The translations under genes were made by a program, and so were the position numbers. Source: Strigamia acuminata (Eukaryota > Arthropoda > Chilopoda > Geophilomorpha > Linotaeniidae). Taken from it: a stretch of 60,000 bases of DNA. The stretch spans positions 9,461,601 through 9,521,600 of the forward strand of contig OX442324.1 in NCBI GenBank assembly GCA_949358305.1, given 5' to 3'. Positions 4,180 through 60,000 of this stretch are shown piece after piece. Under the pieces are notes generated by a model. It was not told where the DNA came from. It saw only the letters and a list, made by a program, of their open reading frames with translations, and did no database searches. Each line of letters starts with the position of its first letter. Position 1 is the stretch's first letter.

Positions 4180-4406
4180 TGTTATAATCGTGTGTGTCAC
4201 CAGGCCGAATATGTATAAATCCCGAATGAGGGTCTCCGACCGCTAGGGGGAGTTGGTTGTATTTTCGGGTCACGGAGGATGACGTGACGTAAAAGTGACT
4301 TCCGGTCACTTGTTCTTCTGGAGACGCGTGCTCTGTATATGCCGTGCGAATAAAACCCCTCATATCTTTTCATCCGAAGTTATCCAGTCTTTTCCCAAAT
4401 ACAACA
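4180..4406 (+). repeat. CopA 3' LTR
   Basis: About 227 bp that start TGTTATAATC and end AATACAACA, so with TG...CA ends. It contains a TATA-like GTATAAAT near 4210 and AATAAA near 4350 (GCGAATAAAACCCC). The size fits copia LTRs. Boundaries come from the preceding purine tract and the terminal dinucleotides, because the partner LTR is outside the window. Confidence 0.65.
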
Positions 4407-22398: not shown

Positions 22399-24770
22399 AA
22401 TGGCCACAAAGACGAAATAACAAAAAGAAAAGAAGAAAAAGGAAATTAGAAATTATCGAGTTACACGCTATGGATGAACTTTTGCAGATTCCAGTAGTAT
22501 TAAATGGTATGGAAATTACTGGTGTCTTGGATTCTGGAGGTTTTCGTAATATCATCAGTGAAGATTTGGTGAGAACTCTGCAGCTCAAATATCAACCCTG
22601 CCCAGGTGTTCGATTGAGAGTTGTGGATGGCTCATTGATAATCCCAGAAGGGAAAACCAGGATTACCATTGATGTTGGACAACAACAACATACCATCGAA
22701 GTGTTGATTGTCAATGGATTTGGACGACATTTACTGCTGGGAGATAATTTCTTAAGATCTGCAAAGTGCAAACTCGACTACGACCAACAGAAGATCTTTG
22801 TAGGCCCAAAAGATGAACAACAAGAAGTTTTCCCAATGTCAAAGAATTATACTGATGTAAATTACATAGCCCGAGTTTTAAAACCAATAACAATTCCAGC
22901 ATTACATGAATGTGTAGTTCCAATAAAAATTGCAAAGAAAGTAGATGATGAACTATTCATAGAACCACTCAGTGGAGTAATTGACCGTTTTGGAGTAATT
23001 TGTTGCAAAACATTGACTAAATTCAGAAAAGGTGAAGGAGTTCTGCGAATTGCAAATCCAACTAAAAAGACAATCTATTTAGGGAAAAACTCAGCAATTG
23101 CAAAGGCCTTTTATGTAATTGAGTCTGGCGTGCTTGATGAAAACAGAGTTAATCAATTTGACTTTAGCACAGCCATGGCGAATGATAACATGACGCTATC
23201 ACAACAAGGGCTAATGTTGCAGTTGCTGGAGAAGAATTCAGATAGATTTGCAAAAACTGACAATGATTTAGGCAGAGCTCACACGATTAAACATCGAATT
23301 GATACTGGAGATTCTCCTCCAATCCATTTACAACCTTATAGACGATCGATTAAGGAAAAAGAAATCGAGGATGCTGAAACAAAGAAGTTACTTGAGCAAG
23401 GAGTCATTAGAGAATCTGAGAGCCCATGGAGTGCACCAGTACTACTCGTCAAGAAAAGAGACGGCAAATGGAGATTTTGTGTTGATTGGAGACGGTTAAA
23501 CGCGGTAACAAAGAAAATGGTTTATCCCTTACCACGTATTGATGACACCCTAGATCAATTAGCGGGTGCGAAGTATTTTTCAATGATGGATCTCATCCAG
23601 GGATATCACCAAGTCGAAATAGACGAACAAGATCGTGAAAAGACAGCGTTTACCACGTCTAGTGGACATTATGAGTTTAATGTCCTTGGAATGGGATTAT
23701 GTAACAGCCCAGCCGCCTTTCAAAAATTGATGAACAAAGTGCTGGGTAACCTCCTGGGAAAAGTATGCATTGCATATCTTGATGATTTGATAGTGTTTTC
23801 AAAGACTTTCGACCAGCACCTCGTCGATTTGGAGGCAGTTTTTGGAAAGCTTAGAACAGCGAATCTCAAAGTTAAGCTGAGCAAATGTACGTTTGCGACA
23901 CACACCATTAGATATCTCGGACATGTGGTTGATGCTGAAGGTATTTCACCGGATCCCAGGAACCTGGAGTCAGTAGCTAAGTTTCCAATTCCTGTGAACG
24001 TTAAACAACTACGTGGTTTTCTTGGATTATGCTCGTATTACCGGAAGTTCATCGCTGGTTTTGCGGACATTTCCAAACCTCTGGTGAATTTAACCAAAAA
24101 GGATGAAAAGTTTGATTGGGGACCACCCCACGACAAAGCATTCCACACGCTCCGAAATGCATTAATAACAGTGCCGGTGTTAGCGCATCCAAACTTTACT
24201 CAGCCCTTCATGATTTCAACTGATGCAATGGTTTATGGTTTAGGAGCAATTCTTAAACAAAAAGTCAACAACCAAGAGCGTGTTATCGCGTATGCAAGTC
24301 GTTTAATGAGCACAGCTGAACAGAACTACACTGCAACTAATAGGGAAATGTTAGCCATCATTTTTGCAATAGAGAAATTTAGACCGTACTTGTATGGACA
24401 GAAATTCCAAATTATCACCGACCATTCTGCCCTCCAATGGCTGAAAGGAGTCCGAAATCCAAATGGACGTCTCGCCAGGTGGGCGCTGCAACTAGCTGAG
24501 TATGATTTTGAAATATTTCATAAAAGCGGCAAGAAACATACAGATGCCGATGCTTTAAGTAGGATCCAGGAAGAATTAAGTGAAGAAGAAATAGAAAAAT
24601 TACCTTCGCTTTTCTTAGAAAACTTGGACCTCCCTGTTGAACAGAGGAAGGATCCCAAACTACTGGACCTCATAACAGCGCTAGAAAACCAAGAGCAACT
24701 TCCAAGAAAAAGAAGACGACCACTAAAGCAGTTCGTTCTTCAAAACAAAACATTGTTCCGGCCCTTATGA
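22395..24770 (+). CDS. pol: GypB Pol, truncated: protease, RT, RNase H
   Basis: Pol in the -1 frame after the shift site. It contains protease (LDSGG), RT (YLDD in the AYLDDLIVFSK region) and RNase H (STDAM, TDHSALQWL). In this element an ATG (22470) also occurs a few codons before the protease. The frame stops at TTC CGG CCC TTA TGA, just after the conserved KTLFR, because about 989 bp present in GypA (about 10979-11968) is missing. The lost part holds the integrase zinc finger and all three catalytic acids. The junction TTCCGG matches the native sequence before GPYEIV, so the deletion probably used short homology. Protein from this frame could still reverse transcribe but cannot integrate. 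Confidence 0.9.
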   Translation, partial: LEWPQRRNNKKKRRKRKLEIIELHAMDELLQIPVVLNGMEITGVLDSGGFRNIISEDLVRTLQLKYQPCPGVRLRVVDGSLIIPEGKTRITIDVGQQQHTIEVLIVNGFGRHLLLGDNFLRSAKCKLDYDQQKIFVGPKDEQQEVFPMSKNYTDVNYIARVLKPITIPALHECVVPIKIAKKVDDELFIEPLSGVIDRFGVICCKTLTKFRKGEGVLRIANPTKKTIYLGKNSAIAKAFYVIESGVLDENRVNQFDFSTAMANDNMTLSQQGLMLQLLEKNSDRFAKTDNDLGRAHTIKHRIDTGDSPPIHLQPYRRSIKEKEIEDAETKKLLEQGVIRESESPWSAPVLLVKKRDGKWRFCVDWRRLNAVTKKMVYPLPRIDDTLDQLAGAKYFSMMDLIQGYHQVEIDEQDREKTAFTTSSGHYEFNVLGMGLCNSPAAFQKLMNKVLGNLLGKVCIAYLDDLIVFSKTFDQHLVDLEAVFGKLRTANLKVKLSKCTFATHTIRYLGHVVDAEGISPDPRNLESVAKFPIPVNVKQLRGFLGLCSYYRKFIAGFADISKPLVNLTKKDEKFDWGPPHDKAFHTLRNALITVPVLAHPNFTQPFMISTDAMVYGLGAILKQKVNNQERVIAYASRLMSTAEQNYTATNREMLAIIFAIEKFRPYLYGQKFQIITDHSALQWLKGVRNPNGRLARWALQLAEYDFEIFHKSGKKHTDADALSRIQEELSEEEIEKLPSLFLENLDLPVEQRKDPKLLDLITALENQEQLPRKRRRPLKQFVLQNKTLFRPL

Positions 24771-24774
24771 AATT

Positions 24775-25206
24775 GTGAGAAGAACAGCACCAAATGATTA
24801 TGAAATTATCAATTCTACAAGAAAGAAAAGTGATATAGTGAATGTAGAAAGGTTAAAACCATATAAGGAGCGAATTGAAGAGGAAATAGATGAAGTTCTG
24901 AAGGATATGCCAGAAAAGAAAGTGAAATTTGCTGAAAAAGTGAAAAAAATCAGTAAAAATGGTGAAATTGTGGTTGAAAACACAGAAAAACCAGTGAAAA
25001 CAACAAGAATCAAGCCAAAGGAGCGTTATATAGATGATACGGAACAAATTTCATTGAAATCGCTATTTGAATCACAGCCCACGAACGAAAATGATAAAAA
25101 CCAACTTAAAAATCCGCCACCAGATGGCGCAAACACAAAAAACGATGATTTCCGGTCGCGCAGACTCAGACCGTTGAAACGAAAAGATTATCGTCATTGC
25201 TACTAA
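24775..25206 (+). pseudogene. GypB remnant of the Pol C-terminus (GPY/F module and tail)
   Basis: About 143 residues in a shifted frame, matching the end of GypA Pol from RRTAPNDYEI to RKDYRHCY. It is separated from the RNase H part by the out-of-frame integrase deletion and has no start signal of its own. Confidence 0.85.
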
Positions 25207-26372
25207 AGTTCTTTGCAACGGTGAACGCAGATAATAGCGTGACCCGAAACAAAGTCTTCTTCTGATTATTTGTTGATAAATTGTGTTAAATTGTGTGTTA
25301 AAAGGTTTGTGTGCATGTTGTGAATGTTTTTAGGTGATTTTAGAAATGAATTGTGACGTTTTTAACGTCCTTATGAACGAATTTCGTGAAATAAAATTCA
25401 TCGCCATTTTCCTCACTTGTGTCGAATATTAATTAGGTGAAAACATTTTGGACTAAATCGTAAATAGTTGAGGATTAAATTTAATAAAATATTGTTGTGA
25501 AATAAAATAATTTTAGAATATGAAAGGAATTAAGATAAACAATGGTGCGAATGGCTGGGAACGTGAAAGGACCCATCGCAACCTTCGCCATCTGCACTGA
25601 ATTTCATTGGGTTTATTAAATAGGATAAAAATTAGAAATAATCGAGAATTAATAGTAATGACACGAGTGTTCGAAGGACGCGATGAAAGTAAATAATTGC
25701 GAATTTTGTTGAAAATGAATAAATTTGAATTGATTTTGACAAACTGTAAATATTTTATGATGAAATTTTTTGATAAATTTGAGGTAAATGTTTCACGGCA
25801 TAATTTTGAGTGAATGTAAATAAGAGTTAATTATTGTAAATAATTGAAGTGAGTTGATGTTTTAACGGTATTGTTAATTTTAAAGAAAATTAGAGAAATA
25901 GGAAAAATATTTTTTGAATTTGTTTATTCCCACTTTGAAAATTGTTAAGAGTTGTAATTTATTATGAAAATGCTTGTTTGTAGTGTGAATGATTTTGAGT
26001 GTTGTGCAAAAATATGAATTTTGATTTTGATAATTTAATTTTGACAAAGTTTTCTTTTGACTTATGTTTTTTTTTGTTAGACTTTTCAAATATGTAAAAA
26101 TAAACAATAGAAAAGCAAAATTGTATTGGTGATATTAAGATAGTTGAGTTGAATTACTTTATGATTTGGTTGGAATAGTAACATTGGAATAAAAGGGAGT
26201 GAAACCAACTCCAGAATGATTTAAGTTTGAATAATAACTGTGAAACAACTGAGTGATAACTTATGAAAGGTAGAAATAGCCGAACATTCATTAAGAATGT
26301 CCGATTTGAAAAGACACCTGTCTGGTAGCGAAATTTGTATTTTGGGGTCCAAAACACAGCAAAAAAGGGAGT
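25207..26372 (+). other. GypB 3' non-coding region and polypurine tract
   Basis: About 1.2 kb of AT-rich DNA. It begins with GGTGAACGCAG, a motif also found right after pol in GypA and GypD. It ends with the polypurine tract AGCAAAAAAGGGAGT before the LTR. No ORF of note is seen. Confidence 0.7.
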
Positions 26373-34900: not shown

Positions 34901-35447
34901 GAGCATGGACGCCCTGTCCATAGAGGAGAACACTCCACCACTGGAGATTCCACTACCGCCGTCTCCCCCGCCACTGCCTCCACCGGCACCTGCGCCGACC
35001 CAGCTCTATCTACGACTGGAAGTAGAATATCCGAATTTACAGATGTCGGAGACAACGCGCCGAGCGTTATTGGCCACTCACCGCCAAGGTGAATCGTTCC
35101 TGCAATGGATGGCGAAGGAAATCAGGTTGACCAACGACCCGATCCTTCATCAACGACTCCAGCGGGCTCACCGAGAGCCCCTCACACCGCCGGAATCGCA
35201 TCGGATGCGTCGATGTCCCGGCCGCTTCCCCGCTTCGACCCAAATCTGGGTACATGAAAGAAGAAGCAGCACGGACGGACCTCCCGGCCACGCTCAATTC
35301 TTCATTAACGAATCGGAGAATCCAGCGAATCTGACCACGTCGCTGCCCGATGGCCTTCCTCCGCCACCGCCAGCCGTTAATCTCCCAATCCTACGTCCCC
35401 GCGGAGGGAAGTTGCCCGCTATTGCGCTGAGGGACCAGATAGGGTAA
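31980..35447 (+). CDS. GypC ORF3, probably spliced, function unknown
   Basis: A 940-residue open frame (32625-35447) lies between pol and the LTR. I propose a two-exon gene: exon 1 at 31980-32099 (40 codons from ATG, beginning MADRRNPRID, acidic end), donor CAG-GTAACA at 32100, acceptor ATACTTCAG ending at 32642, and exon 2 at 32643-35447. Both splice points are in phase 0, giving about 974 residues. I do not recognise the protein. It has no visible signal peptide or membrane segment, so it is not a typical env. The N-terminal part is Arg/Glu-rich and probably folded. The middle is Ser/Arg-rich and low in complexity, and from about residue 440 proline-rich stretches dominate (PPPPP near the end). 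It could be an accessory or Gag-like protein, or less likely a captured host gene. Confidence 0.55.
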
Positions 35448-47930: not shown

Positions 47931-49112
47931 TTAGATTTCACCAAATAAAGCTTCATTGTTACGGATTACCTTATAAATTTTCTTTAAACAATGAGTTGGC
48001 ACTCTTTGTTTGCGTAACAGATAGGTACTATCTCTAGTGAGATTGTCAAAAAATAGTGCAACCGCACTTTTGGAGGTTAAATAACCTTGTAAATTCCACA
48101 TTCTATAGAATCGGTATATGAAGGAATACAGACTCTCTGAGTCTCGTTGTTTTGTTAAAATCAACTGTACTGTTCTTTCTAACTGTGTTGTTACAAATTG
48201 TTCGCGGAACAGGTATTCGAATATTTTCCAATTGAAAATTTTATGTTGATTTTCACAAAACCAATTCTGAGTAAAGTGTAACAAATAGCTTGGAACACAT
48301 TCGTGAACCATTTTTTGTAGCGGCATATAATTAATAGATGCCACCTTCCTGATAAATGCGAGGAGTAGCTCGCTCTCCTCGGCTTTTAGTGAATACTTTT
48401 GGAAAGTACTCTGCCCCTTTTGCAACAATGTATACACACTTTTCACCATGTTAATGTATTCATCTGAAGACAATCCAAAGTGAGGTGATCGCGAACGCGA
48501 TCTAAAATTATTTTGCAAAACACTACAATCGCGCACATAATTAGCAATTCGTACGTTCTTGTTTGTTACATTAGTAACTACATCTTGAGTATCGTTCAAG
48601 GATGATTCGGGTGAAGGTAAATGTCTATGAGCCCAAACGGGATCAAGATTTGCTTTCTGTCGATACCGACTAATTGGTGTCGAAGGAGTCGAACCTAATC
48701 GTGGATCGTTAGATCCATAATTAGCGGAAGAACGAGATCTAGATCTAGATCCTTTAAAAGGTAGTTTATTTAACATAACAAAATCCACCATTTCGACGAT
48801 TGATCGGAATTGGTTTGGATTCAAACCATAATCAGTACAAAATAAAAGTCCTGTCGGACCTAAATGTGATCCATCCGATGGAAGATTTCCTTCCACAGGA
48901 GAATTTAGTTCAGTCTGAACCAAGTTAGGATCTATAATTCTGATCGGTTCCGTTGTTTCATTCGAAACACTATTACCGACCACGTGGTTTACTATTTCCT
49001 CTACTAATCCAGTTTCGTTAGAAACTGGCACAAATCCGGTTAAACTTATTCTACCGGTCAAACAAGTTCTTTCCTTACCGCGTGTGTTCATCGAGTGCTG
49101 GTTACTAGTCAT
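47931..49112 (-). CDS. LTR-E Gag-like protein
   Basis: About 393 residues from ATG at 49112; the frame is open to 49238 but has no earlier ATG. An AG splice-acceptor-like site (TTTTTCAATTTTAG) ends three bases before the ATG. The N-terminal half is low complexity with an SR run (GSRSRSRSS, FRSRSRSP). The C-terminal half (about residues 245-393) is helical and resembles retrotransposon gag capsid domains: LLLAFIRKVASINY, WKIFEYLFREQFV, LILTKQRDSESLYSFIYRFY, LFFDNLTRD. There is no zinc knuckle and no protease. The frame is intact in spite of the missing pol, which suggests selection or youth. The capsid assignment rests on pattern, not on a close match. Confidence 0.55.
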   Translation of the reverse strand: MTSNQHSMNTRGKERTCLTGRISLTGFVPVSNETGLVEEIVNHVVGNSVSNETTEPIRIIDPNLVQTELNSPVEGNLPSDGSHLGPTGLLFCTDYGLNPNQFRSIVEMVDFVMLNKLPFKGSRSRSRSSANYGSNDPRLGSTPSTPISRYRQKANLDPVWAHRHLPSPESSLNDTQDVVTNVTNKNVRIANYVRDCSVLQNNFRSRSRSPHFGLSSDEYINMVKSVYTLLQKGQSTFQKYSLKAEESELLLAFIRKVASINYMPLQKMVHECVPSYLLHFTQNWFCENQHKIFNWKIFEYLFREQFVTTQLERTVQLILTKQRDSESLYSFIYRFYRMWNLQGYLTSKSAVALFFDNLTRDSTYLLRKQRVPTHCLKKIYKVIRNNEALFGEI

Positions 49113-49552
49113 AACTAAAATTGAAAAATAAAATTTCCGAAGTCTGAGAGATAACGATGAAGTCGTAACGTTCAGGAAGGTTGCAAACGAAGCAGTGGTT
49201 ACACTATTTCGAATGGAAGTATGGGTACTTCGATACACCTCTCTGATTGGTTGATTGTCAAACGTCAGTCTCGCGAGACTCTAATCTCATCTGAGATTGG
49301 TGGAAATCACTATTTTCGTGGAACCTAAATCTTGTCAGATTTCAGGGTTATGACGTAGTCACCAAATAAAATGGATACTTTTCCAAGTATTTTAAAATAT
49401 CACCAATTTTATTAATAAAAATGGTAACCTTTACGGGATTTTTAAAGTATTAAAAACCACAATTTCACAAGTACGTTGAATCGATTGAATCGACGGCTTT
49501 GCTGAATTCCGTTCTTTATTTGAATTTATCAAATAATAAATTTCAGTTTTAA

Positions 49553-49816
49553 CTAAAACTTACTAACTTGATTTTTACAAAATCTAGTAATTTTTTTACT
49601 TTTTATCCCATAAAAGCACGTTGAATCATTTGATTCGGTAGCTTTACGGCAAGTAACGAAAAATTTCGAACGCAATTCCGTGAAAAAAGTGAAGGAATGC
49701 ACATTTTTTAATGTATTTGTCTCTGTTAAGGCGGTATACAAGGTTTCTTGTATCTCCTCCCCCTCCGTTTCTTCAGAATATTCTTTAGAATCTTCTGAAA
49801 AACTGGATTCGAACAT
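49553..49816 (-). CDS. Small acidic ORF in LTR-E, uncertain
   Basis: 87 residues from an ATG at 49816. It begins with an acidic stretch (FSEDSKEYSEETEGEE) and has a Lys-rich, Cys-containing end. There is no recognised domain. It lies upstream of the gag-like ORF on the same strand, so it may be a leader ORF or chance. Confidence 0.25.
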   Translation of the reverse strand: MFESSFSEDSKEYSEETEGEEIQETLYTALTETNTLKNVHSFTFFTELRSKFFVTCRKATESNDSTCFYGIKSKKITRFCKNQVSKF

Positions 49817-51401
49817 TATTTAAATATTCTGACATTATTAGGCATAAATAATTATATGCTTTCTAGTTTATTCAAACTTTCAAACAAGATTAGGTATTTA
49901 TACCTAACCGATCGTTTTGACGTTGTCTACGAATTCTTTCGTTGGACGTCATGTTGTTTTTCTACGTGTTCGATTGAAACTACGGTAAATCGATGAATTG
50001 GGGGCGGACACGAACGTATCAAAGTCAGCTTAATCTTCATCCCCCGGTGGTAAAATTTTAAACTTTACCACGTGGTAAATTTAATATTTCACCGTAAAAT
50101 CCATTTTTTCAAATGAAAAAAAAATTGTAATGGAAAGTTCCTTATTTACGTTGTAAATATCCTGGAAATTTCATCCTTTATTTCGAGAATGAAGAATAAA
50201 GTTTTATTCCTTTTCTACACCAAAATCGTTTGATTTTGCAATTCGCAAAATTTACTATTTTCTTTAGAAAATAAGAATTCAAAGAATGCAACGTTAATTA
50301 CAAGATTAATGTAAACATGATTAAAATTTGGATAAATTTCAACTGAAATTTTTCCAGTTAATCGTATCATTCGATTTATTTTAATAAACCGAAATAAATA
50401 TTACTCTTATTTTTAGGTAAATCCAGATTTATTTAGTCAAATAAACCGAATTCACGATGATTGAATTGTTAGGCAACAATTCAGGAAAGTACGCCTGGAA
50501 ACCTGGCGGCTTCTCACCTGACCGCGTGTTTTATTGTAACTACGACGGAAAATCATCGTTGTCCAGACGGACAAAACAACGTCGAATTCGGATTGGATTC
50601 TCCAATTCCCGTGATAGGATTTTTAGGCCTTACCACATGGTAAAATAATTATTTTATACCATCGTTCGAATTTTCTGCAGAAAATACATTTAGAAGTGAA
50701 TACTCTCATCGTTCTTAGGATTTCAATCACAAGAACAAAATTGGATACTTTAGAAATAAATAAATAAACTTCGTACGAAACTTACTTTAAATTCGAACTC
50801 GAATTCTTTTTAGGAAATTAAACTTTCTCGTTTTAAGCCTGTCCACGCGTTCGATCGTAACGGCGACGATTAGACGTTCACGGAACGGGCAAAACAACGA
50901 TAAGCTCGGATTGGAGTTCAAACATTCCGTGTTGAGATTTTTAGGCCTCGCCACGTGGTAAAATAATCATTTTACGGCGAATTCGAATTTTCAGCGGAAA
51001 ATTACAAATAAAGATAAAAGAAAATACCTTCGCTTGTGATTTTAATCACGAGAGCAAAATAAACACATTCAGAGAGAACTAAATTTCGATTGAAACTTAT
51101 TTCCACGGGAAACTTAATTATAAGTCTTCGGTAAGTCTGAGGAGAGCGCACTGAAACGTTTGGTTCTCGGTGGCTTCTCGGCAAAACACCCGTTGCTGGG
51201 CAACCGTAGTAGCAAAAGTCTTCGCTAAATTTGAATAGTATTCTATCCAAGGAATTTGGTTTTAAAGACTTAAAACCAAAAGGTGATTAACACATTTGAA
51301 AATTAAAATGTAAATCAGGTATGTAAAGCAATTTATCGAAATAAAATATCTTTTATTCCATTGAATCAACTTTTCCGTTGTTTTATTTAATCAAATAAAA
51401 T
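49817..51401 (-). other. LTR-E leader region with diverged internal repeats
   Basis: AT-rich, with no convincing ORF. Segments at about 50510-50745 and 50830-51065 are diverged direct repeats: TTTTTAGGCCT(T/C)(A/G)CCAC(A/G)TGG, then GGTAAAATAAT(T/C)ATTTTA. A third relative near 50040-50090 includes CCACGTGGTAAA. Confidence 0.5.
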
Positions 51402-51533
51402 GGTTCTGGATACGTGTAAGCGGCGGCTACACTGGTTGAGGATCCGGGCGATGCACGAAGGGTACGGCTGACTTTGCGGCATCGTCACAAATAACGCTAC
51501 GGAGACGTATTTGGTCCGCAGCTCGAATATCTA
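51402..51533 (-). repeat. LTR-E 5' LTR fragment
   Basis: 132 bp (GGTTCTGGATACGTG to CGAATATCTA) matching 45489-45620 by eye; the LTR stops where the GypD LTR begins. Confidence 0.75.
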
Positions 51534-52036
51534 CGTGGATAAATCACCACTGTTTACCCACGTGAATAACTTATATTTGACTATGTCTTATCAAAGACTA
51601 ATTGCATTTATTTAACTGACTTGACTTGGGGTGTAAATAAGAAGGACTCATTGTGTAGGTTTAAATTATACAAAATATATTTATTCGATTATAAAACATA
51701 AAGCATAAAGCAATTTCAATTAATAATAAACTTAAGAATAACTTAAGACTAAACTAAAACTATCTTAATTCTATGAGCATGAATAACACTAAATTCTATC
51801 ACATTAAAACCTTGAGATGCCACAGCAATAACTGCTTGTCAACCTCTCTGTCTCTCTAAGTCAAACCCAGACTTATATAGGTTTAGACTGTTCTATTGAT
51901 GATTGATAGGTAAACTAATTACCTCATTCGCTTAAGGCGAACTCTATTGAGAATTTACTGAATTAATTCGGCTCAAATAAGTACGGAAACGTGGTGGCGA
52001 CAACTGGCTTACAGTGTGCTCGCCAACCGCGTAACA
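51532..52036 (-). repeat. GypD 3' LTR
   Basis: About 505 bp. On the minus strand it starts TGTTACGCGGTTGGCG after the purine tract, has a TATA-like CCTATATAAG near 51880, and ends ...TTATCCACGTA. The related LTRs end CCACGTAACA and CCACATAACA, so the last bases seem altered or lost at the junction with LTR-E. Confidence 0.75.
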
Positions 52037-52050
52037 GCCCCCTCCTTTAG
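52037..52050 (-). promoter_or_regulatory. GypD polypurine tract
   Basis: CTAAAGGAGGGGGC on the minus strand, directly before the LTR start. Confidence 0.75.
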
Positions 52051-52516
52051 CTTTTTGGACCCCAAAAACAATATACTAAATCTAATCAATAACGTGTTAT
52101 TCATTCTCTTTGGATGTGTTATCCATGCTCATTCACAATAATATACACTTCAAATTAAAGATAAATTAAAACAAATTCACACTCTGAAATTCAGAATATC
52201 GTTTCAAGTATTACAAGATACACTTTCAAAAACAACACTTTTTGGTATTTTTACATGCTTATAATAATTTTTTTTTTTCTTTTACTGTTTTCCTATTTTC
52301 TATACAAACTAATAATTCAAAGAAATAATGCATTACATTCAATGTAAATGAAAAATGAAAACAATTACAAAATCAAAAAAAATAATATCAAATTCAAAAT
52401 AATGAAAGAAATACAATGTCTCTGCTCGCTCCAGTATACCTGGGCTCACATCATTGACAAAACAATGAAACAAATAATACAAAAAAAATAATATACACAC
52501 AACACTTAATGTCCAA
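52051..52516 (-). other. GypD spacer between Ulp1-like ORF and polypurine tract
   Basis: AT-rich non-coding DNA with A- and T-runs; no ORF. Confidence 0.6.
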
Positions 52517-53878
52517 TTAAGGCTGGTTTTCCTCCTTTTCGAATGGGATCAACTTCTCGTGTAAGATCTCGTACACTATACGCTGGCGCAAATCGATGGG
52601 ATGGCCATGGCGCATGTTGTCCCTGTCTTCGATATATCGGCGGGCAAAGTATAAGATAGTGGGCCCGCAGCTATCGCCGTCAAGCTGTTGCATGCGGGGC
52701 GGGTCCCACTTCTCATAGCCCCGTGGAAACACCATTCCAGCTCCGACAATACAATTATGCACTCGCTCCCAAGCAGGGCAACTAAAAGTGAGAACCCCGC
52801 TCGGATCGTAAAGCGTTACCTGTGTTGGAAATTTGGTCCAATCGACCACAAACAATTGCCAGTGATCGATTTCTGGTATCGGGAAAATCCAAACTGACTT
52901 CCCATAATGGTCATGGGTTTTCTTCATCCATCGCCTCGCCTCTGGGAACCGCTTAGAGTCCAATATCATCTCGACAAAATCATATCTGACTGCCCATACT
53001 CGTTCGTTAAATTTTGCGAGCATCCGCAAATAATGGTCAATCACACTTGGATGAACCCAAGCCCTTTCACCTGGCGCAAGATGTCCAAGAGACGCCATTT
53101 CACTGTTGGTTATTATTATGGACGGGTCATCTGACATGGTGATCGCTGTTTCGTGCTTTGGTCGGTAACTTAAAGCTACTGTCGCTTCCAACGCCTCCAT
53201 CTGTTGGTTTCCTTGCAACCGAACGCGATAAAGCACCAATTCCTTGGGCAAAATCACACATGGGTCCAATTTGGATTCCCTGCGCCCGAGTACTGTCGCT
53301 CGTTGGATGTTGCGACGAATCTTAGCCTCGTGTTGCAACAGCTTATCTGCTGCTCGAAACCATGCTTCGAACACCAAACGTCCATCAAGGCCTTTCAGAC
53401 CTTTTTTCCTCACTTCTTCAGTCATACAGCGCTGCTCTAATCTTAGTTCGCCAAGGCGCTTTTCATTCCGAGAAATTGTTTTCTTCGCCTGCTTCTGAAT
53501 GACCTGAAGCCCTTTATCGGTGAATGCGCGTTTCTCCGCTGTATCCGCAGTTCGTCTTCTTTGCAGACAACGCTTACGCCGCGCTATTTTGTTTAGCTGC
53601 ACAGTTGTCAATGGTGCATCATACTCTTTAGGCCGCGCACCAAGCTCCTTTCGTTCGGAAAATGGGCGTTTAAATGTTACTAGCTCGGACAATGGTTTAA
53701 TAGGAATCGTTGCAATGTCTTCCTCCTCAGCCAAGACATCCAAATGCTCCAACTCTGAATTCCTATCATATAAATCGAACATCTGGGTTGAAACCCCCGA
53801 ACACACGGAAATATTGTCGTCTTCGTCTGAGCTGTCTTTCACGTCCATCCGACTAAATTTTCCCGTCATATCGTCCAT
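52517..53878 (-). CDS. Ulp1/SENP-like (C48) cysteine protease, third ORF of GypD
   Basis: 453 residues from an ATG at 53878, intact to a TAA. The C-terminal third is a Ulp1-type peptidase. Catalytic H339 (EIDHWQLFVVDW), D358 (TLYDPSG), Q398 and C404 (QLDGDSCGP) are all present, with Q six residues before C as in Ulp1. Family members cleave SUMO or related ubiquitin-like modifiers; the substrate here is unknown. Residues 1-60 are acidic (SSDEDDNISVCSG could bind SUMO, a guess). Residues 95-200 are basic and probably helical. The ORF lies between pol and the polypurine tract, in the env position, where GypA and GypB have nothing. Minus-strand TTATTTTTGCACATATTAG ends six bases before the ATG and looks like a splice acceptor, so expression from a spliced RNA is likely. 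It could be a captured host or transposon gene. Confidence 0.85.
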   Translation of the reverse strand: MDDMTGKFSRMDVKDSSDEDDNISVCSGVSTQMFDLYDRNSELEHLDVLAEEEDIATIPIKPLSELVTFKRPFSERKELGARPKEYDAPLTTVQLNKIARRKRCLQRRRTADTAEKRAFTDKGLQVIQKQAKKTISRNEKRLGELRLEQRCMTEEVRKKGLKGLDGRLVFEAWFRAADKLLQHEAKIRRNIQRATVLGRRESKLDPCVILPKELVLYRVRLQGNQQMEALEATVALSYRPKHETAITMSDDPSIIITNSEMASLGHLAPGERAWVHPSVIDHYLRMLAKFNERVWAVRYDFVEMILDSKRFPEARRWMKKTHDHYGKSVWIFPIPEIDHWQLFVVDWTKFPTQVTLYDPSGVLTFSCPAWERVHNCIVGAGMVFPRGYEKWDPPRMQQLDGDSCGPTILYFARRYIEDRDNMRHGHPIDLRQRIVYEILHEKLIPFEKEENQP

Positions 53879-54441
53879 TCAAGTCTAATATGTGCAAAAA
53901 TAAATTAAATTCATTAATTAAAATTCAATAATGGCCAATACAGTTCATGTTCACAATCAATTTGTCTAAATTTCATTAGATTTCTAACTTTATACAATAT
54001 TCAAATTATTTCATCTAAACCAATTAAATATTCATAGCTATTTCTATTAAATTTCAAAATTAAATGCTAAGTTAACATTTCGAAAAATGTGCTAAGTTCA
54101 CTTTATTCGCTGGAAAAATGGCGATAGATTCGTTTCGTTTCGTTCACTTTCGGGACTTTTATTAATATCTTCCAAAATCCATGAACAATGTCTTAAATCT
54201 CTTCAAATCATCAAGTAAATTCAAGTTATTCTTAGTTCACTGCAAATAACTTGCGTTCGCCTCAAAAAACAAGAAAATACAACATCAAAATCACATCACG
54301 TCTCGCCTACGTTCATTTCAACTTTCGTCAAACAAAAGTACCTACTTTCACCAAAACTACACAAAATCCTCGTCAATCACGTCTCGAATAACAGCAATTC
54401 CCTTTGCTCACTGCAAATAACTTGCGTTCACTCAAGGAAAG
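53879..54441 (-). other. GypD spacer between pol and Ulp1-like ORF
   Basis: 563 bp, AT-rich. After pol it carries GAGTGAACGCAAGTTATTTGC-like DNA, twice (near 54240 and 54415), related to the post-pol motif of GypA and GypB. It ends with a splice-acceptor-like AG at 53885. Confidence 0.5.
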
Positions 54442-57400
54442 CTAGTAAAATGCAGTGTAATCCTGGCGTGGTTGCGATCTAAGTCGTCGTGACCGGAAAT
54501 CACTTTCAGCAGGACGTCGCGCATGCGTATCAGCGCTAACAGCACTTGCGACACCTGGTGATGGTTTCTGCGACCGATTCTTCTTGTTTTCGTCTGGCGA
54601 CGACTTTAGCAACTGATTTTGCTTGCTTTTCTCATCTTCTTCTTTCACTCGACGTTCCTCAATTTCTTTCGGCCCGTAGAGTGCCTTCAATCGTTCCCTC
54701 TCAGTTGGAACCGGGAAATCCGACGTTTTGTTTTCAGATTCAAAGAGTGATTTTAATGATATCTGGTCCTCGTCAGTAATAAACCTTTCCTTCGCACCTA
54801 ATTTAGGCTTATCTCGCGAATCATCGTCCTTCTTCACAATTTCCGCATTTTGATCGTCTTTTTGCGAACTTCCTTGCACTTCATCAGAAAATGTTACTTT
54901 CTTCGGTGGTAAATCCTGCAGAATAGTTTCTGGAATTTCCTCTCGCGGCTTATATGGTTTTAAACGCTCAACATTGACAATACTAGTTTTCTTTCCTGAT
55001 GAATTCCTTACTTCATAATCGTTTGGCGCTGTGCGTCTAACTATTTCATATGGTCCAGAAAATGGCGGCAGGAGTTTTTCGCTTAACCCTATTTTCCTAT
55101 TCGGGGTTTTCAAGTAAACTAATTCCCCTGGTTCGAATTCCACCACAATTCTGTCCAAATCAAATCTTCTCTTGCTCTTTTCACTCTGCCATTCTAGTCT
55201 TTCGTTGGCAATTTTCCGCATCTCCCGCATAAATCTAGAAGTGCGAAGAGTGAATTCCTTTCGAGGAAGGTTCAAGTTCACATCCACACTCAAATCAACT
55301 TCATAACCTTTCAACAAATAATATGGGGTATATCCAGTTGTTTCATGGACTGCTGAATTATAGGAGAAAATGACAAATGGTAAAAATTCATCCCAATCTG
55401 TGTGATCTTTATTAGTATAACATGTCAACATTTTGGCAAACGTTGCATTAAATCTTTCCGTCAACCCGTTGGTTCTTGGGTGGTATCCGGAAGTAGATTT
55501 GTGCTGGGATTTAAACAGTGCTGATACCTCATTAATCATTTCGTTCCTGTACTCCGTCCCCTGATCGCTGAGTATCTCGCGTGGACTTCCCTCTTTGAGC
55601 ATTACCTCGAATACCAGAGTTTTCGCTGCTTCCAACGCTGTACATGCTGGAGCCGCTCTAGCGATGACTGCACGCGATAAATAATCAGTGATGACAAAAA
55701 CAAATTTATTTCCACTATTTGAAACTGGAAAGCTTCCTAACGTGTCTATACCAATCCTCTCAAACGGTCTTGAGATCGTCGACCAAGGTTGTAATAAACC
55801 TTTTTGTGGAGTGGTCATTGACTTACTTCCTGCGCAATGTGGACAACTGAGAACGTAATTCCTTACGTCCCTGTATATCCTCGGCCAAAAGAATCTTACT
55901 CTAATTCTTTTCCACGTCTTATTTAGGCCGAGATGAGCACCTACGAGCCCGTCATGCATTTCTTCTAACACTTGCTTACGTAAATGCTGCGGTACTACTA
56001 AAAGGTTTCCTTCCATGTTTAGAGAATTGTAACTTTTCTTTCTAAACAACGTGTTATCCAGGAGAACGAACTGTTTTAAAGGACGTTTCCTGTTTCTTGG
56101 AAGTTGCTCAATGTTCTCCATTGCGGTGATGATCTCCAAAATTTTCTCGTCCTTACGCTGTTCGACAGGTAAGTTGAGTTTTTCGAGAAGTAGTAAGGGA
56201 ATAATTTCTTTTTCTTCCTCACCAATCTCTTCTTGGATTCGGCTAAGAGCATCTGCGTCCGTGTGCTTCTTGCCTGACTTATGCATCACATCGTAGTCAT
56301 AATCTACCAGTTGTAAACTCCACCTGGCCAACCTACCGTTGGGATTTTTCACCTTATTCAGCCATTGTAACGCAGAATGGTCTGTCACAATTGTAAATTT
56401 CCTACCGTAAAGATATGGTCTGTACTTGTTAATGCCGAATATTATGGCTAAACACTCTCTTTCCGTAGCTGTGTAATTCTGTTCCGCTGTACTTAATAAT
56501 CGACTGGCGTAACAAATCACATGTTCTTGCTTGTTAATACGCTGCTTCAGAATTGCACCGAGTCCATAGGCACTTGCATCCGTAGACACAATGAATGGCT
56601 CTGCAAAATTTGGATGTGCTAAAACTGGTACCGTGACTAAAGCTGTTCGTAAGGCCTTAAAAGCTGTTTCCTGTGGTGGTCCCCAATCAAAAGCTTCATC
56701 TTTACGAGTCAAGTTGGCTAATGGCTTAGATACGTCCGCAAATCCTGGAATGAACTTACGATAATACGAACATAAACCCAAAAACCCTCTCAACTGCTTT
56801 AAATTTGTTGGTTTTGGAAATTTAGCAACACTTTCCAAATTACGTGGATCAGGTGACACTCCATCAGAATCAACAATGTGGCCTAAATATTTGATGGTAT
56901 TAGTACCAAACGTACATTTGCTGAGTTTAACCTTCAAGTTCGCCAAACGCAGCTTGCTGAAGACAGCATCGAGATCCTGAAGATGCTGATCAAATGTTTT
57001 CGAAAATATAATAAGGTCGTCAATATAAGCTATACAGACCTTGCCAAGAAGATTACCAAGCACCTTATTCATCAGTTTTTGAAACGCTGCTGGGCTATTA
57101 CATAATCCCATTCCTAGGACATTAAACTCAAAATGTCCGCTTGAAGTGGTAAACGCTGTTTTTTCACGATCTTGTTCATCTATCTCGACTTGATAATATC
57201 CTTGGATAAGATCCATCATCGAAAAATACTGGGCCCCTGCCAGTTGGTCCAATGTATCGTCAATTCTGGGCAGTGGGTATACCATTTTCTTTGTGATCGC
57301 GTTTAACCTCCTCCAATCGACACAAAATCTCCATTTACCGTCTCTTTTCTTGATGAGTAGTACTGGTGCACTCCATGGACTTTCTGATTCCCTAATGACT

Positions 57401-58476
57401 CCCATCTCAAGCAACTTTCTGGTCTCTTCTGCCTCTACTTCTTTTTCCGCGATTGAACGTCTATAAGGCTGCAAATGTATTGGATCATGGTCCCCCGTAT
57501 TAATTTTGTGTTTAAATGTTGTTACTCTACCTAAGTCTTTGTCTGTGGCTGCAAATCTATCCTGGTTCTTTAGAAGTAACTGCTTCATCTGCTCTTGTTG
57601 GCTTTTGGTCATCTTATCTTTAGCAATCGAGGAGTCAAAGTCAAAGCAATGCACTGTCAACTCAACCGCTTTGGTTGAGGAGTCAGTGCAATACACTTGC
57701 TTCTCATCCAACAACCCAATTTCGATAATGTAATACGCCTTACCAATTGCAGATTTCTCCTTCAGAAAGACTGATTTGTTTGTTGGATTAGCCACACGCA
57801 GAACTCCTTTACCATACTCAAAATTTGTTAATGTTTTACAACACAAAATTCCAAACCTATCTATTACGTTTCCTAGAGGTTCCATAAACATTTCTGTGGT
57901 TAGCTTTGTATTTAAATAAACTGGTATAACGCATTCATGCATTGGTGGAATTGAAATATTCTTCATCACTCTGGCGACATAACTCTGGTCCGAAAATGAT
58001 CTATTTATTGGAAAAACTGCTTCTTCTACTCCACTAACATTGTTCCGGCCCACAAAGATTTTTTGTAAATCATAATCGACGACAGTCCTCGTCGACCTCA
58101 TGAATGGATCCCCCAATAAAAGCTGATGATGAAATCCTGACACTATTAACACTTCCACTCTATAGGTCAGTTTTCCAATTGCAATGTTCATTTTTGTTTT
58201 ACCCACTGGAACTACCAAATCCTTTCCTATCCCACGTAGCCTAATGTTAGGGCTGGGTGAATAATCCAATTGAAGGGCTACTGCCACTTCTTCGCTTAGC
58301 AGGTTTCGTTTGGCTCCAGTGTCCATTACCGCTTTTATTTCCATTTCTTTTACAATTACTGGGATTTCCAACAATGACTCCGATACCTGAACGTCAATTA
58401 TAATTATCTTACTCTTCTTCTTTTGTCTTTTCCTTTTCTTTGGGTAGCAACAATTTCTCTGTGGCCGTCCAACTAG
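54442..58476 (-). CDS. pol: GypD Pol (protease, RT, RNase H, integrase)
   Basis: The frame is -1 to gag and open through the gag stop; the 1310 residues counted from TTG at 58374 have no ATG start, so it relies on frameshifting. It has protease (VMDTGAKRNLL), RT (PLPRIDDTLDQL, then YIDD in AYIDDLIIFSK), RNase H (STDAS, TDHSALQWL), H2C2 finger (HDGLVGAHLG, CPHC), integrase core (GIDTLGSF, LSDQGTEY, TNGLTERFN) and a GPY/F-like module (FSGPYEIVRR). The tail beyond it is longer and more charged than in GypA and ends RQDYTAFY. The N-terminal linker has a strong basic cluster, PKKRKRQKKKSK, which could be a nuclear localisation signal. No breaks are seen. Confidence 0.93.
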   Translation of the reverse strand, partial: LVGRPQRNCCYPKKRKRQKKKSKIIIIDVQVSESLLEIPVIVKEMEIKAVMDTGAKRNLLSEEVAVALQLDYSPSPNIRLRGIGKDLVVPVGKTKMNIAIGKLTYRVEVLIVSGFHHQLLLGDPFMRSTRTVVDYDLQKIFVGRNNVSGVEEAVFPINRSFSDQSYVARVMKNISIPPMHECVIPVYLNTKLTTEMFMEPLGNVIDRFGILCCKTLTNFEYGKGVLRVANPTNKSVFLKEKSAIGKAYYIIEIGLLDEKQVYCTDSSTKAVELTVHCFDFDSSIAKDKMTKSQQEQMKQLLLKNQDRFAATDKDLGRVTTFKHKINTGDHDPIHLQPYRRSIAEKEVEAEETRKLLEMGVIRESESPWSAPVLLIKKRDGKWRFCVDWRRLNAITKKMVYPLPRIDDTLDQLAGAQYFSMMDLIQGYYQVEIDEQDREKTAFTTSSGHFEFNVLGMGLCNSPAAFQKLMNKVLGNLLGKVCIAYIDDLIIFSKTFDQHLQDLDAVFSKLRLANLKVKLSKCTFGTNTIKYLGHIVDSDGVSPDPRNLESVAKFPKPTNLKQLRGFLGLCSYYRKFIPGFADVSKPLANLTRKDEAFDWGPPQETAFKALRTALVTVPVLAHPNFAEPFIVSTDASAYGLGAILKQRINKQEHVICYASRLLSTAEQNYTATERECLAIIFGINKYRPYLYGRKFTIVTDHSALQWLNKVKNPNGRLARWSLQLVDYDYDVMHKSGKKHTDADALSRIQEEIGEEEKEIIPLLLLEKLNLPVEQRKDEKILEIITAMENIEQLPRNRKRPLKQFVLLDNTLFRKKSYNSLNMEGNLLVVPQHLRKQVLEEMHDGLVGAHLGLNKTWKRIRVRFFWPRIYRDVRNYVLSCPHCAGSKSMTTPQKGLLQPWSTISRPFERIGIDTLGSFPVSNSGNKFVFVITDYLSRAVIARAAPACTALEAAKTLVFEVMLKEGSPREILSDQGTEYRNEMINEVSALFKSQHKSTSGYHPRTNGLTERFNATFAKMLTCYTNKDHTDWDEFLPFVIFSYNSAVHETTGYTPYYLLKGYEVDLSVDVNLNLPRKEFTLRTSRFMREMRKIANERLEWQSEKSKRRFDLDRIVVEFEPGELVYLKTPNRKIGLSEKLLPPFSGPYEIVRRTAPNDYEVRNSSGKKTSIVNVERLKPYKPREEIPETILQDLPPKKVTFSDEVQGSSQKDDQNAEIVKKDDDSRDKPKLGAKERFITDEDQISLKSLFESENKTSDFPVPTERERLKALYGPKEIEERRVKEEDEKSKQNQLLKSSPDENKKNRSQKPSPGVASAVSADTHARRPAESDFRSRRLRSQPRQDYTAFY

Positions 58477-58482
58477 TTTTTC
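58473..58482 (-). promoter_or_regulatory. GypD -1 frameshift site, GAAAAAC-TAG
   Basis: Gag ends TCG AAA AAC TAG. The position and the -1 pol frame match GypA and GypB, but the heptamer G AAA AAC departs from the ideal at its first base. Confidence 0.6.
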
Positions 58483-59822
58483 GAATTTTGGGCCTTCGTT
58501 TGTCCCTGAGGATTAGGGTTTCCATCTTGCTGTTCACCTCTTCTCCTCTTTTTATTCCACTTCCAGCTGTTACTTCCACCTCTTTCCTGTTGCTGTTGTT
58601 GCTGTTGTTGTTGTTGCCTGGGTGGATTGTAAAACTCACAACTGAAATGATGATAACATCCGCATGAACGGTTATTAGAATTATTACTATTGTTAGTGTT
58701 ATAATTATTGTAATTAGGATTAAAGCCTTGTCTACCGCCTCTACTTCTACCTCCTTGATTATACTGTCCCCTATTCCTTATTGGCGCATACCACTGATTT
58801 TGTATCAATATCGACTCTTCATCCAGCAAATCCACTGACTCTGCTTCTAACAATCGCTGTTTTAACTCAGCGACTTCCGCTAACAATTCAGCGTGGGTTG
58901 GTTGGGTCCCCACAGTTCCACTCAGTTTACCTGCTGTTACCGGGATCGCCTTCTCGTCCACGATTTTTTTAAACGCCGCGAGTAGAACATCTGCTGGGTC
59001 TTTTACTTTATGACTTTCGAATAACTTAATTCTCTCTTCCATATCCGCCAAAGTCTTCGGGAATACAGTAATCAACATTTTTTGCATTTCCGGCTTCAAT
59101 CCTTGAAAAATGTAATTAATCTTCAAATTCTCAGGTAATTCTGGTCGCGCATAAGCACATTCGGCCAAGACCTTCTTCATAAATGCATCGGCTTTACCAT
59201 CTGAATGCCTCATAAAATGAAGAGTGTTCAATACATTTTCCTGGCTTTTCCTGAACTTCTTTTCGATTTGTGGCTTCCATTCTGTCCAAGTCCAGGTTGG
59301 ATTCGTTTTATATTGTTCCACAAACCATGCCAGTCCGTCAGTCTTAAGGGCTAACGGCAATTGCTTCACTCGTTCATCATCTGATGCTATTGTAGCTTCA
59401 TAAGCCACAAGCCATTGGTCAATGTTACCTTTTTCCGTATCATAACAAACAACTTCGCGCTTTTGTATCAAAATACCCTTGAGAAGATCAGTTAAAACTG
59501 TTGTTGGATCCGCCATCTTGGATACAGTTCCTTTTGATGTGGATTCCTTTAATTTTACTGGTGTTAACAATTCAAATACTGATTGAAAAGACTTTGATTG
59601 CGCAAATTTTAATGGGGTTGCAAAAACAAGTTTATCATCCAATGTGGAAGTATTTTGCTCAACCTCCTTTGTTCCAGGTTCCGACTGTGAAGTTGTTTTT
59701 CTTTTCCTAAACGCTACTTTGGAATCATCCACTGTGCTTACTAATTCTCTTTCTAATTCTTGATTCTTTAAGTCCAGTAGATTATCCGTTTGCGCCTGTG
59801 ATAACTTAACTGGCTGATCCAC
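58473..59822 (-). CDS. gag: GypD Gag
   Basis: 449 residues counted from a GTG at 59822; a TAA lies four codons upstream. The first ATG is residue 103 (59516, context AAGATGG), where MADPTTVLTDLL starts the capsid-like part. That part resembles GypA (YDTEKGNIDQWLVAYEATIA against FDPATGNIDTWLIGYEDTIA). The C-terminal third is N/Q/G/R-rich with a Cys/His patch (SCGCYHHFSCEF) that is not a canonical CCHC knuckle. As in GypA and GypB about 100 AUG-less codons precede the ATG. Confidence 0.9.
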   Translation of the reverse strand: MDQPVKLSQAQTDNLLDLKNQELERELVSTVDDSKVAFRKRKTTSQSEPGTKEVEQNTSTLDDKLVFATPLKFAQSKSFQSVFELLTPVKLKESTSKGTVSKMADPTTVLTDLLKGILIQKREVVCYDTEKGNIDQWLVAYEATIASDDERVKQLPLALKTDGLAWFVEQYKTNPTWTWTEWKPQIEKKFRKSQENVLNTLHFMRHSDGKADAFMKKVLAECAYARPELPENLKINYIFQGLKPEMQKMLITVFPKTLADMEERIKLFESHKVKDPADVLLAAFKKIVDEKAIPVTAGKLSGTVGTQPTHAELLAEVAELKQRLLEAESVDLLDEESILIQNQWYAPIRNRGQYNQGGRSRGGRQGFNPNYNNYNTNNSNNSNNRSCGCYHHFSCEFYNPPRQQQQQQQQQQERGGSNSWKWNKKRRRGEQQDGNPNPQGQTKAQNSKN

Positions 59823-60000
59823 TGTTAAGCCTTAAATTATAACTTCACTTTATTCACAGACCGCTTTAGTAACTCACAACTTTCACTAAACCTGAAACAA
59901 ACTTATGCACAATTAATTAACACTATTAGTCACTAATTCAAAGTAAATTTCAACAAAATCAAAACAATAAATTATTTTCTGAAAAATAATCAAAATTGAT
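59823..60000 (-). other. GypD leader (continues past window)
   Basis: AT-rich leader upstream of gag on the minus strand; no LTR or primer site is reached. Confidence 0.6.

Follow-up and report, generated by a model that had tools for sequence, protein, structure and literature searches.

We describe in Strigamia acuminata an LTR retrotransposon of the Ty3/gypsy type, GypD, whose third open reading frame (ORF3) encodes a SENP/Ulp1-like protein and has been lost repeatedly; Ulp1 domains in other mobile elements were already known, and it is this third-ORF gene of an LTR element, with its repeated loss, that is new here. ORF3 is a captured, putatively enzymatic third ORF that stands at the same place across families and is under selection. 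Among the literature matches listed, a set that lies largely outside subscription journals and outside Repbase, we found none that describes an LTR retrotransposon with a separate Ulp1/SENP ORF.

The third ORF of GypD and its SENP/Ulp1-like domain

The window, by which we mean the whole stretch of 60,000 nucleotides that was analysed, contains GypD in reverse orientation, with the following features given from the 5' to the 3' end of the element.

58473..59822, minus strand: gag ORF, named from its position and from the same layout in GypA and GypB
54442..58374, minus strand: pol, with the Pfam domains aspartic protease, RT, RNase H and integrase in this order
53879..54441, minus strand: pol-ORF3 spacer of 563 nt, found in GypD copies with and without ORF3
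53885..53910, minus strand: U-rich tract ending in AG, 6 nt 5' of the ORF3 ATG; a weak candidate 3' splice site
52517..53878, minus strand: ORF3 (ulp), SENP/Ulp1-like protein of 453 aa, intact frame from ATG to stop
53126..53878, minus strand: N-terminal region of ORF3, with an acidic start and then a basic Arg/Lys-rich stretch
52550..53125, minus strand: predicted catalytic domain, C-terminal, residues ~252-443, from the SENP1 profile match and alignment
52037..52056, minus strand: polypurine tract before the 3' LTR; the same tract precedes the LTR in the L017 copy
51533..52036, minus strand: 3' LTR, last few bases missing

The first-pass annotation had placed an intact third ORF between the pol of GypD and its polypurine tract, where errantiviruses carry env, and this is borne out at 52517-53878 (minus strand, 453 codons). 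From the end of pol at 54442, the window copy continues with the 563-nt spacer, ORF3, AT-rich DNA, a purine-rich tract, AAAGGAGGGGGC, that directly abuts the start of the 3' LTR at 52036, and the LTR itself. The element has the Ty3/gypsy order, that is, gag (by position only, since the ORF at 58473..59822 gave no Pfam match) followed by PR-RT-RNaseH-INT, with a GPY motif in the integrase as read by eye, and other GypD copies display 100% identical LTRs and a 4-bp TSD. Insect errantiviruses, as described in PMC12992720, have gag, pol and a third ORF before the 3' LTR in the same order; their third ORF is env, whereas that of GypD is SENP-like, and a Pfam search of the element and its relatives gave no env match. 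The N-terminal region of ORF3 had no match in Pfam. The candidate 3' splice site passed a loose test in 5 of 7 related sequences, as did 8-10% of shuffles, and no splice donor for an ORF3 mRNA was identified; in the full-length copies compared, the spacer or part of it stands before ORF3, and no retrocopy of a spliced ORF3 message was noticed among them. The window also holds a 435-codon frame beyond the GypD 3' LTR (47931-49238, minus strand), with a sub-threshold Retrotrans_gag match (E 0.6), and a proline-rich open frame of 940 codons (32625-35447, plus strand).

The claim that ORF3 encodes a C48-type protease with H339, D358, Q398 and C404 was confirmed: the four residues are present in the window ORF3 at these positions and, together with W274 and W340, are invariant in 12/12 aligned rows (5 GypD and 7 distant ones). 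From the phmmer alignment and from structural work on SENP1, we take the two tryptophans to be those of the SENP1 substrate tunnel. ORF3 alone scored below the cut-off of Pfam PF02902 (18.1 bits vs 20.7, E 0.0026). A phmmer search against PDB matched residues 248-444 to human SENP1 chains (E 9e-9), and a profile of the 12 ORF3 sequences found SENP1 at E 1e-12, with SENP5, SENP2, SENP3 and yeast Ulp1 behind it. On these SENP1 matches the domain is SENP/Ulp1-like, and by homology and the His-Asp-Cys/Gln set the predicted catalytic domain is of the Peptidase C48 (SENP/Ulp1) type. The Pfam C48 model recognises 3/12 ORF3 relatives at E<=0.01, which fits with the absence of ORF3 from the 29 matches of a family search of the genome. 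A search of IMG/VR viral contigs for ORF3 relatives gave 21 pattern matches, none of which was confirmed.

Human SENP1 and the SENP1 of the host (L001) are the closest named structures and have the catalytic set in common with ORF3. The host gene is interrupted and agrees at 53-65% with human SENP1 in its three main pieces; over the aligned domain, ORF3 stands on a long branch, at 31% to the human and 26% to the host protein. In a small tree of the ORF3 clade, host SENP1 and the genomic Ulp1s L003-L006, a 92/90 split put ORF3 and SENP1 together, apart from L003-L006; as the ORF3 branch is long (1.77), long branches meet among the others and outside rows are few, a closer relation of ORF3 to SENP1 than to L003-L006 is only a lead. 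The sequences L006-L010 represent a separate repeat, whose open frame of 1,075 codons includes an Ulp1 domain and which has six rows with the same family-search score; L006, the one of these included in the tree, is not close kin of ORF3. In L003 an Ulp1-like domain precedes a Cys-rich segment that resembles PHD, which recalls a Ginger1 family with Ulp1 and PHD described in PMC2836005.

Age, position and selection of ORF3 across families

The genome searched comprises 237.5 Mb in 157 contigs, with TTAGG repeats at one contig end, a telomere type that points to an arthropod other than Drosophila. A DNA search with ORF3 gave at least 43 matches (the best 40 of 70 candidates scored), including at least 15 full-length copies of 87-100% identity, the window copy among them. 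Eleven of the 15 are open from ATG to stop and L019 is open with an ATA start; L023 is broken by a single stop, and L012 and L024 by frameshifts. A protein search extended the set to at least 95 matches, which fall into four deep lineages and reach as low as 37% identity (the best 93 of 452 candidates scored). At least 74 of these matches are full-length (from residue 1-3 to residue 447 or beyond), 66 of them without a stop by hand count: 13 at 92-100% identity (12 stop-free), 10 at 46-50% (10 stop-free), 41 at 41-42% (37 stop-free) and 10 at 37-40% (7 stop-free). The remaining protein matches, among them one at 56%, are fragmentary or broken. All these copy counts are lower bounds because only the best candidates were scored.

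In 13 of 14 distant loci (L046-L059), pol sequence was found upstream of ORF3, on the same strand and within about 1 kb; in L051 and L059 it is a short C-terminal piece only, the elements at L046 and L053 are broken, and the 2.5 kb read at L056 contained no pol match. Across the eight distant loci where the pol alignment exceeds 600 aa, identity to the window element is 64-76% for pol and 35-50% for ORF3, so that over the long term ORF3 has changed faster than pol. Unrooted trees were compared for ORF3 (17 rows) and for the RNase H-integrase region of pol (10 rows), which have 9 rows in common. Both 9-row trees contain the groups L050+L057, L049+L052+L054 and L047+L048+L058, each with support of 100/100. 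They conflict inside the last group, where pol joins L047 with L058 (99/98) and ORF3 joins L047 with L048 (83/85), and they also differ in the order of three deep lines, at which the support of pol is 54/36. The common main groups fit one old acquisition followed by mainly vertical descent, with some possible exchange of ORF3 inside the L047/L048/L058 group. A recent acquisition by GypD alone is ruled out by the four deep ORF3 lineages and by the main groups common to the ORF3 and pol trees.

These data also bear on the idea that ORF3 belongs to a distinct DNA transposon, bearing Ulp1, which inserted into the window copy. Ulp1 domains do occur in Ginger1 and MULE elements, according to PMC2836005 and PMC13317346, and in other repeats of this genome. 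Against such nesting, four deep lineages agree in the place of ORF3, and the other genomic Ulp1s compared (L003-L006) are not close kin of the ORF3 clade. A search of positions 49000-60000 for inverted repeats of at least 30 bases found none. Since ORF3 occupies the same place in distant families and the ORF3-less copies that were read are internal deletions and not empty sites, we rejected this explanation, which we regard as extremely improbable.

ORF3 evolves under strong purifying selection. The median dN/dS was 0.060 (range 0-0.17; 67 pairs with dS >0.05 among 13 copies, a set that leaves out the frameshifted L012 and L024). With 12 indel-free copies (49 pairs), the coding frame gave 0.065; the same alignment gave 2.3 and 4.3 when read in the remaining two forward frames and 1.5, 0.15 and 3.9 in the reverse frames, and we take the low reverse value to be that of the frame whose third positions coincide. 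The purifying selection for which the first-pass annotation had proposed a check is thus found, with a dN/dS of about 0.06 in frame and values far above this in the other forward frames. The differences between the window copy and L017 are distributed as 30/12/127 over the three codon positions. The C-terminal ~310 codons of pol, variable tail included, gave 0.25 (34 pairs, 9 copies). In the closest pair of copies, L011-L013, the N-terminal dN/dS was 0.57, on few changes. The view of ORF3 as a functionless passenger, a piece of a host gene picked up by chance, would agree with its repeated deletion without visible cost to copy number (see below), but it is at odds with a dN/dS of 0.06, with open frames at 35-56% protein identity and with invariant catalytic residues; on the selection tests we ruled it out, and consider it very improbable.

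Recent mobility and repeated deletion of ORF3

Copies carrying ORF3 have jumped recently. The 5' LTR of the window copy lies beyond the window and has been rearranged at a solo-LTR-like insert, and for this reason other copies were used for dating by LTRs. Among copies with an open ORF3, the LTR pairs are 100% identical in L017 (518 bp), L020 (518 bp), L014 (507 bp), L019 (519 bp) and L018 (over the 309 bp compared), and 99.6% identical over 517 bp in L021. An LTR of L016 is split by an insert of 1,043 bp (TG..CA, with AATT duplications), and the two parts of this LTR are 100 and 98.3% identical. Duplications of 4 bp can be read at the flanks (e.g. CTAT, GTAT and ATAT). The insert in the 5' LTR of the window copy is a copy of that in L016, with 96% identity; two GypD copies, that of the window included, have this solo-LTR-like sequence of 1,043 bp (TGTCACG..CGTGACA) in the region of their 5' LTR (L041:2645-3687 and L042:405-1447). 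Copies without ORF3 are young as well, as judged by the LTRs of L061 (100% over 519 bp), L062 (99.4% over 503 bp) and L031 (100% over the 295 bp aligned).

The window contains two relatives of GypD, GypA and GypB, and a tblastn search with eight ORF3 proteins matched only 52517-53878, so that both are without ORF3.

22470..26011, plus strand: GypB pol and post-pol region; ORF3 deleted at ~25979-26011 by comparison with the ORF3-carrying L050
8705..12436, plus strand: GypA pol, with no ORF3 downstream; it groups with the ORF3 carriers L050+L057 (100/100)

GypB is 96% identical to L050 over 1,213 bp up to position 2854 of the latter, and 92% identical over 952 bp from position 4380 on; GypB lacks the 1,525 bp of L050 in between, with the whole of ORF3, and has 31 unaligned bases in their place. 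GypB is, on this alignment, a deletion derivative of an ORF3 carrier. For GypA, the loss of ORF3 is the simpler but not the sole reading because the trees are unrooted. Thus, the earlier statement that GypA and GypB lack ORF3 holds, but it loses its value as evidence of a recent acquisition, since GypB has suffered a deletion and the pol of GypA lies among those of carriers.

Within GypD itself we found at least four deletion classes, given here by ORF position, plus a more diverged case (L066).

4 to 1139: GypD ORF3 deletion in L031-L034
-41 to 1231: GypD ORF3 deletion in L037-L039 and L062
~6-11 to 1239: GypD ORF3 deletion in L065 and L067
-124 to 1387: GypD ORF3 deletion in L060, L061 and L063

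Most junctions display short matches at their borders (a GGAATGG-like stretch, or TTT), and several keep remnants of the ORF3 3' end. On the basis of these short matches we take the classes to be internal deletions, by template switch or microhomology, that then spread. We also considered retrocopies of spliced RNA and rejected them, because the junctions are mostly short border matches, unlike GT-AG introns. The last ~32 codons of ORF3 mostly stay open in the deletions of L032, L033, L037-L039, L062 and L065-L067. The deletions of the -124 class and of GypB remove these codons, which are therefore not required.

A search with pol (the best 35 of 6,992 candidates scored) yielded 34 GypD loci, 29 of which have a full-length open pol. 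When the listings were joined by hand, ORF3 was kept in 10/29 (eight open, ATA start included, one with a frameshift and one with a stop) and missing from 19/29. Thirteen of the 19 were read as sequence, and one of these 13, L064, is known only to have no ORF3 sequence within ~1.6 kb downstream. The other six were classified from search listings: three have the ORF3 3' tail only among the DNA matches listed, and three have the spacer end of the -124 class and are absent among the ORF3 DNA matches listed. These results show that several sublineages deleted only ORF3 and kept jumping with an open pol. The first-pass annotation had proposed to check whether ORF3 is present in all GypD copies, and with 10/29 open-pol loci it is not; it had also held that copies lacking ORF3 with clean boundaries of a separate transposon would speak against a third ORF. 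Copies without ORF3 do exist (19/29), but the junctions that were read are internal deletions.

Two explanations of the role of ORF3 can be weighed here. If ORF3 were a maturation protease for Gag or Pol, it would resemble the adenovirus-type cysteine proteases, which mature their virions, and the element does encode a cysteine-protease domain; but its pol already has a retroviral-type aspartic protease, and 19/29 open-pol loci are without ORF3, so we think this role quite improbable. A function in transfer between cells or tissues, such as env has in errantiviruses, with loss of ORF3 leaving purely intracellular retrotransposons, we likewise judge improbable. The position of ORF3 is that of env, and its loss in amplifying sublineages parallels the loss of env in endogenous retroviruses, which a study cited in PMC5408684 is, by its title, said to report. 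Nevertheless, the Pfam search of ORF3 and its relatives matched C48 only, and we know of no fusion role for a SENP-type domain.

Possible function of ORF3 and related systems

That ORF3 is old and selected, yet dispensable in cis for many copies, would be expected of a function that is trans-acting, shared or conditional. Our best guess, based on sequence, is that it may be a deSUMOylase-like counter-defence or host-adaptation protein. In the mechanism that we propose, a SENP/Ulp1-type gene would have entered the ancestor of a Ty3/gypsy clade and become its third ORF, in the position of env. ORF3 would be translated from its own mRNA, probably spliced, and its protein might enter the nucleus by means of the basic N-terminal region and there cleave SUMO, or a related ubiquitin-like protein, off host or element proteins in trans; SENP-fold enzymes can also act on other ubiquitin-like proteins. 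Such cleavage would ease SUMO-dependent silencing or restriction of the family, and the copies without ORF3 would live off carriers in the same cell. We give an even chance to the joint proposal that the old SENP/Ulp1 third ORF of this gypsy clade acts in trans and eases SUMO-dependent silencing or restriction. That the clade has a diffusible SUMO isopeptidase which disarms SUMO-dependent silencing and serves as a common good exploited by cheater copies that have deleted the gene is possible, although we put it forward as a tentative and rather doubtful proposal. The absence of ORF3 from many young copies also fits a niche role, e.g. in tissue or cell-to-cell spread.

The SENP-type chemistry, the basic N-terminal stretch, whose character is conserved, and the need for SUMO in fly piRNA silencing make a SUMO-silencing antagonist the most attractive reading. 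In flies, SUMO conjugation is reported, in PMC8733420 and PMC7272611, to be required for piRNA-guided silencing, and in yeast, according to PMC8585004, Ty1 RNA rises when the SUMO-conjugating enzyme or two SUMO ligases are lost. In the same paper Ty1 RNA is also up in yeast ulp1 mutants, and Ulp1 knockdown in flies raises R1/R2 RNA (PMC7676866). Because Ulp1 both matures and removes SUMO, the yeast and fly data do not settle in which direction an added SENP-like enzyme would act.

The main rival to the SUMO-silencing antagonist is that ORF3 strips SUMO or a ubiquitin-like tag from the Gag, integrase or pre-integration complex of the element itself, thus protecting particles or integration. It draws on the same anatomical evidence, and a product made common by co-packaging or a shared cytoplasm fits the existence of ORF3-less copies; the basic N-terminal stretch, which suggests a nuclear location, would argue against it, and we consider it unlikely.

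Returning to the SENP-like third ORF as such, it has parallels in other mobile elements. LTR elements of bdelloid rotifers, according to PMC5408684, carry after pol an enzymatic ORF3 that is not env and is gained and lost by lineage, as here, and that is described as expressed from spliced messages; these ORF3s are a GDSL esterase and a DEDDy exonuclease, i.e. other enzymes in another host phylum, and the text of PMC5408684 makes no mention of Ulp, SUMO, OTU, peptidase or cysteine protease. Orchid Ty3/gypsy elements with an AlkB-type m6A demethylase ORF (PMC9289625) likewise have a fixed host-type regulatory enzyme that is proposed to act against host surveillance; it is a plant 2-ODD RNA demethylase for which in vitro activity was shown, whereas that of the GypD ORF3 is predicted from sequence. 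NeSL and Utopia (PMC4640811) resemble GypD in that a retrotransposon encodes a Ulp1-like cysteine protease, but they are nematode non-LTR elements with the domain N-terminal in an element protein, and not in a separate ORF after pol. As in GypD, Ulp1 domains have become fixed in Ginger1 and in MULE/KIU, to judge from PMC2836005 and PMC13317346, the latter of which discusses KIU alongside the VANC anti-silencing proteins; in the same sources Ginger1 and KIU are DNA transposons, the Ulp1 domain lying at the C-terminus of the transposase in Ginger1 and in a different gene of the element in KIU.

If our reading of GypD is true, it would add to the enzymatic third ORFs of LTR elements, with an accessory gene that is kept by selection while being repeatedly lost in cis. 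SUMO conjugation joins piRNA target recognition to heterochromatin in flies, and to our knowledge few animal transposon products have been proposed to act against this SUMO step of silencing. A conserved, selected SENP-like ORF in a young, multi-family gypsy clade is a concrete candidate for such a product, for which the natural ORF3-deleted copies of the same families provide built-in controls.
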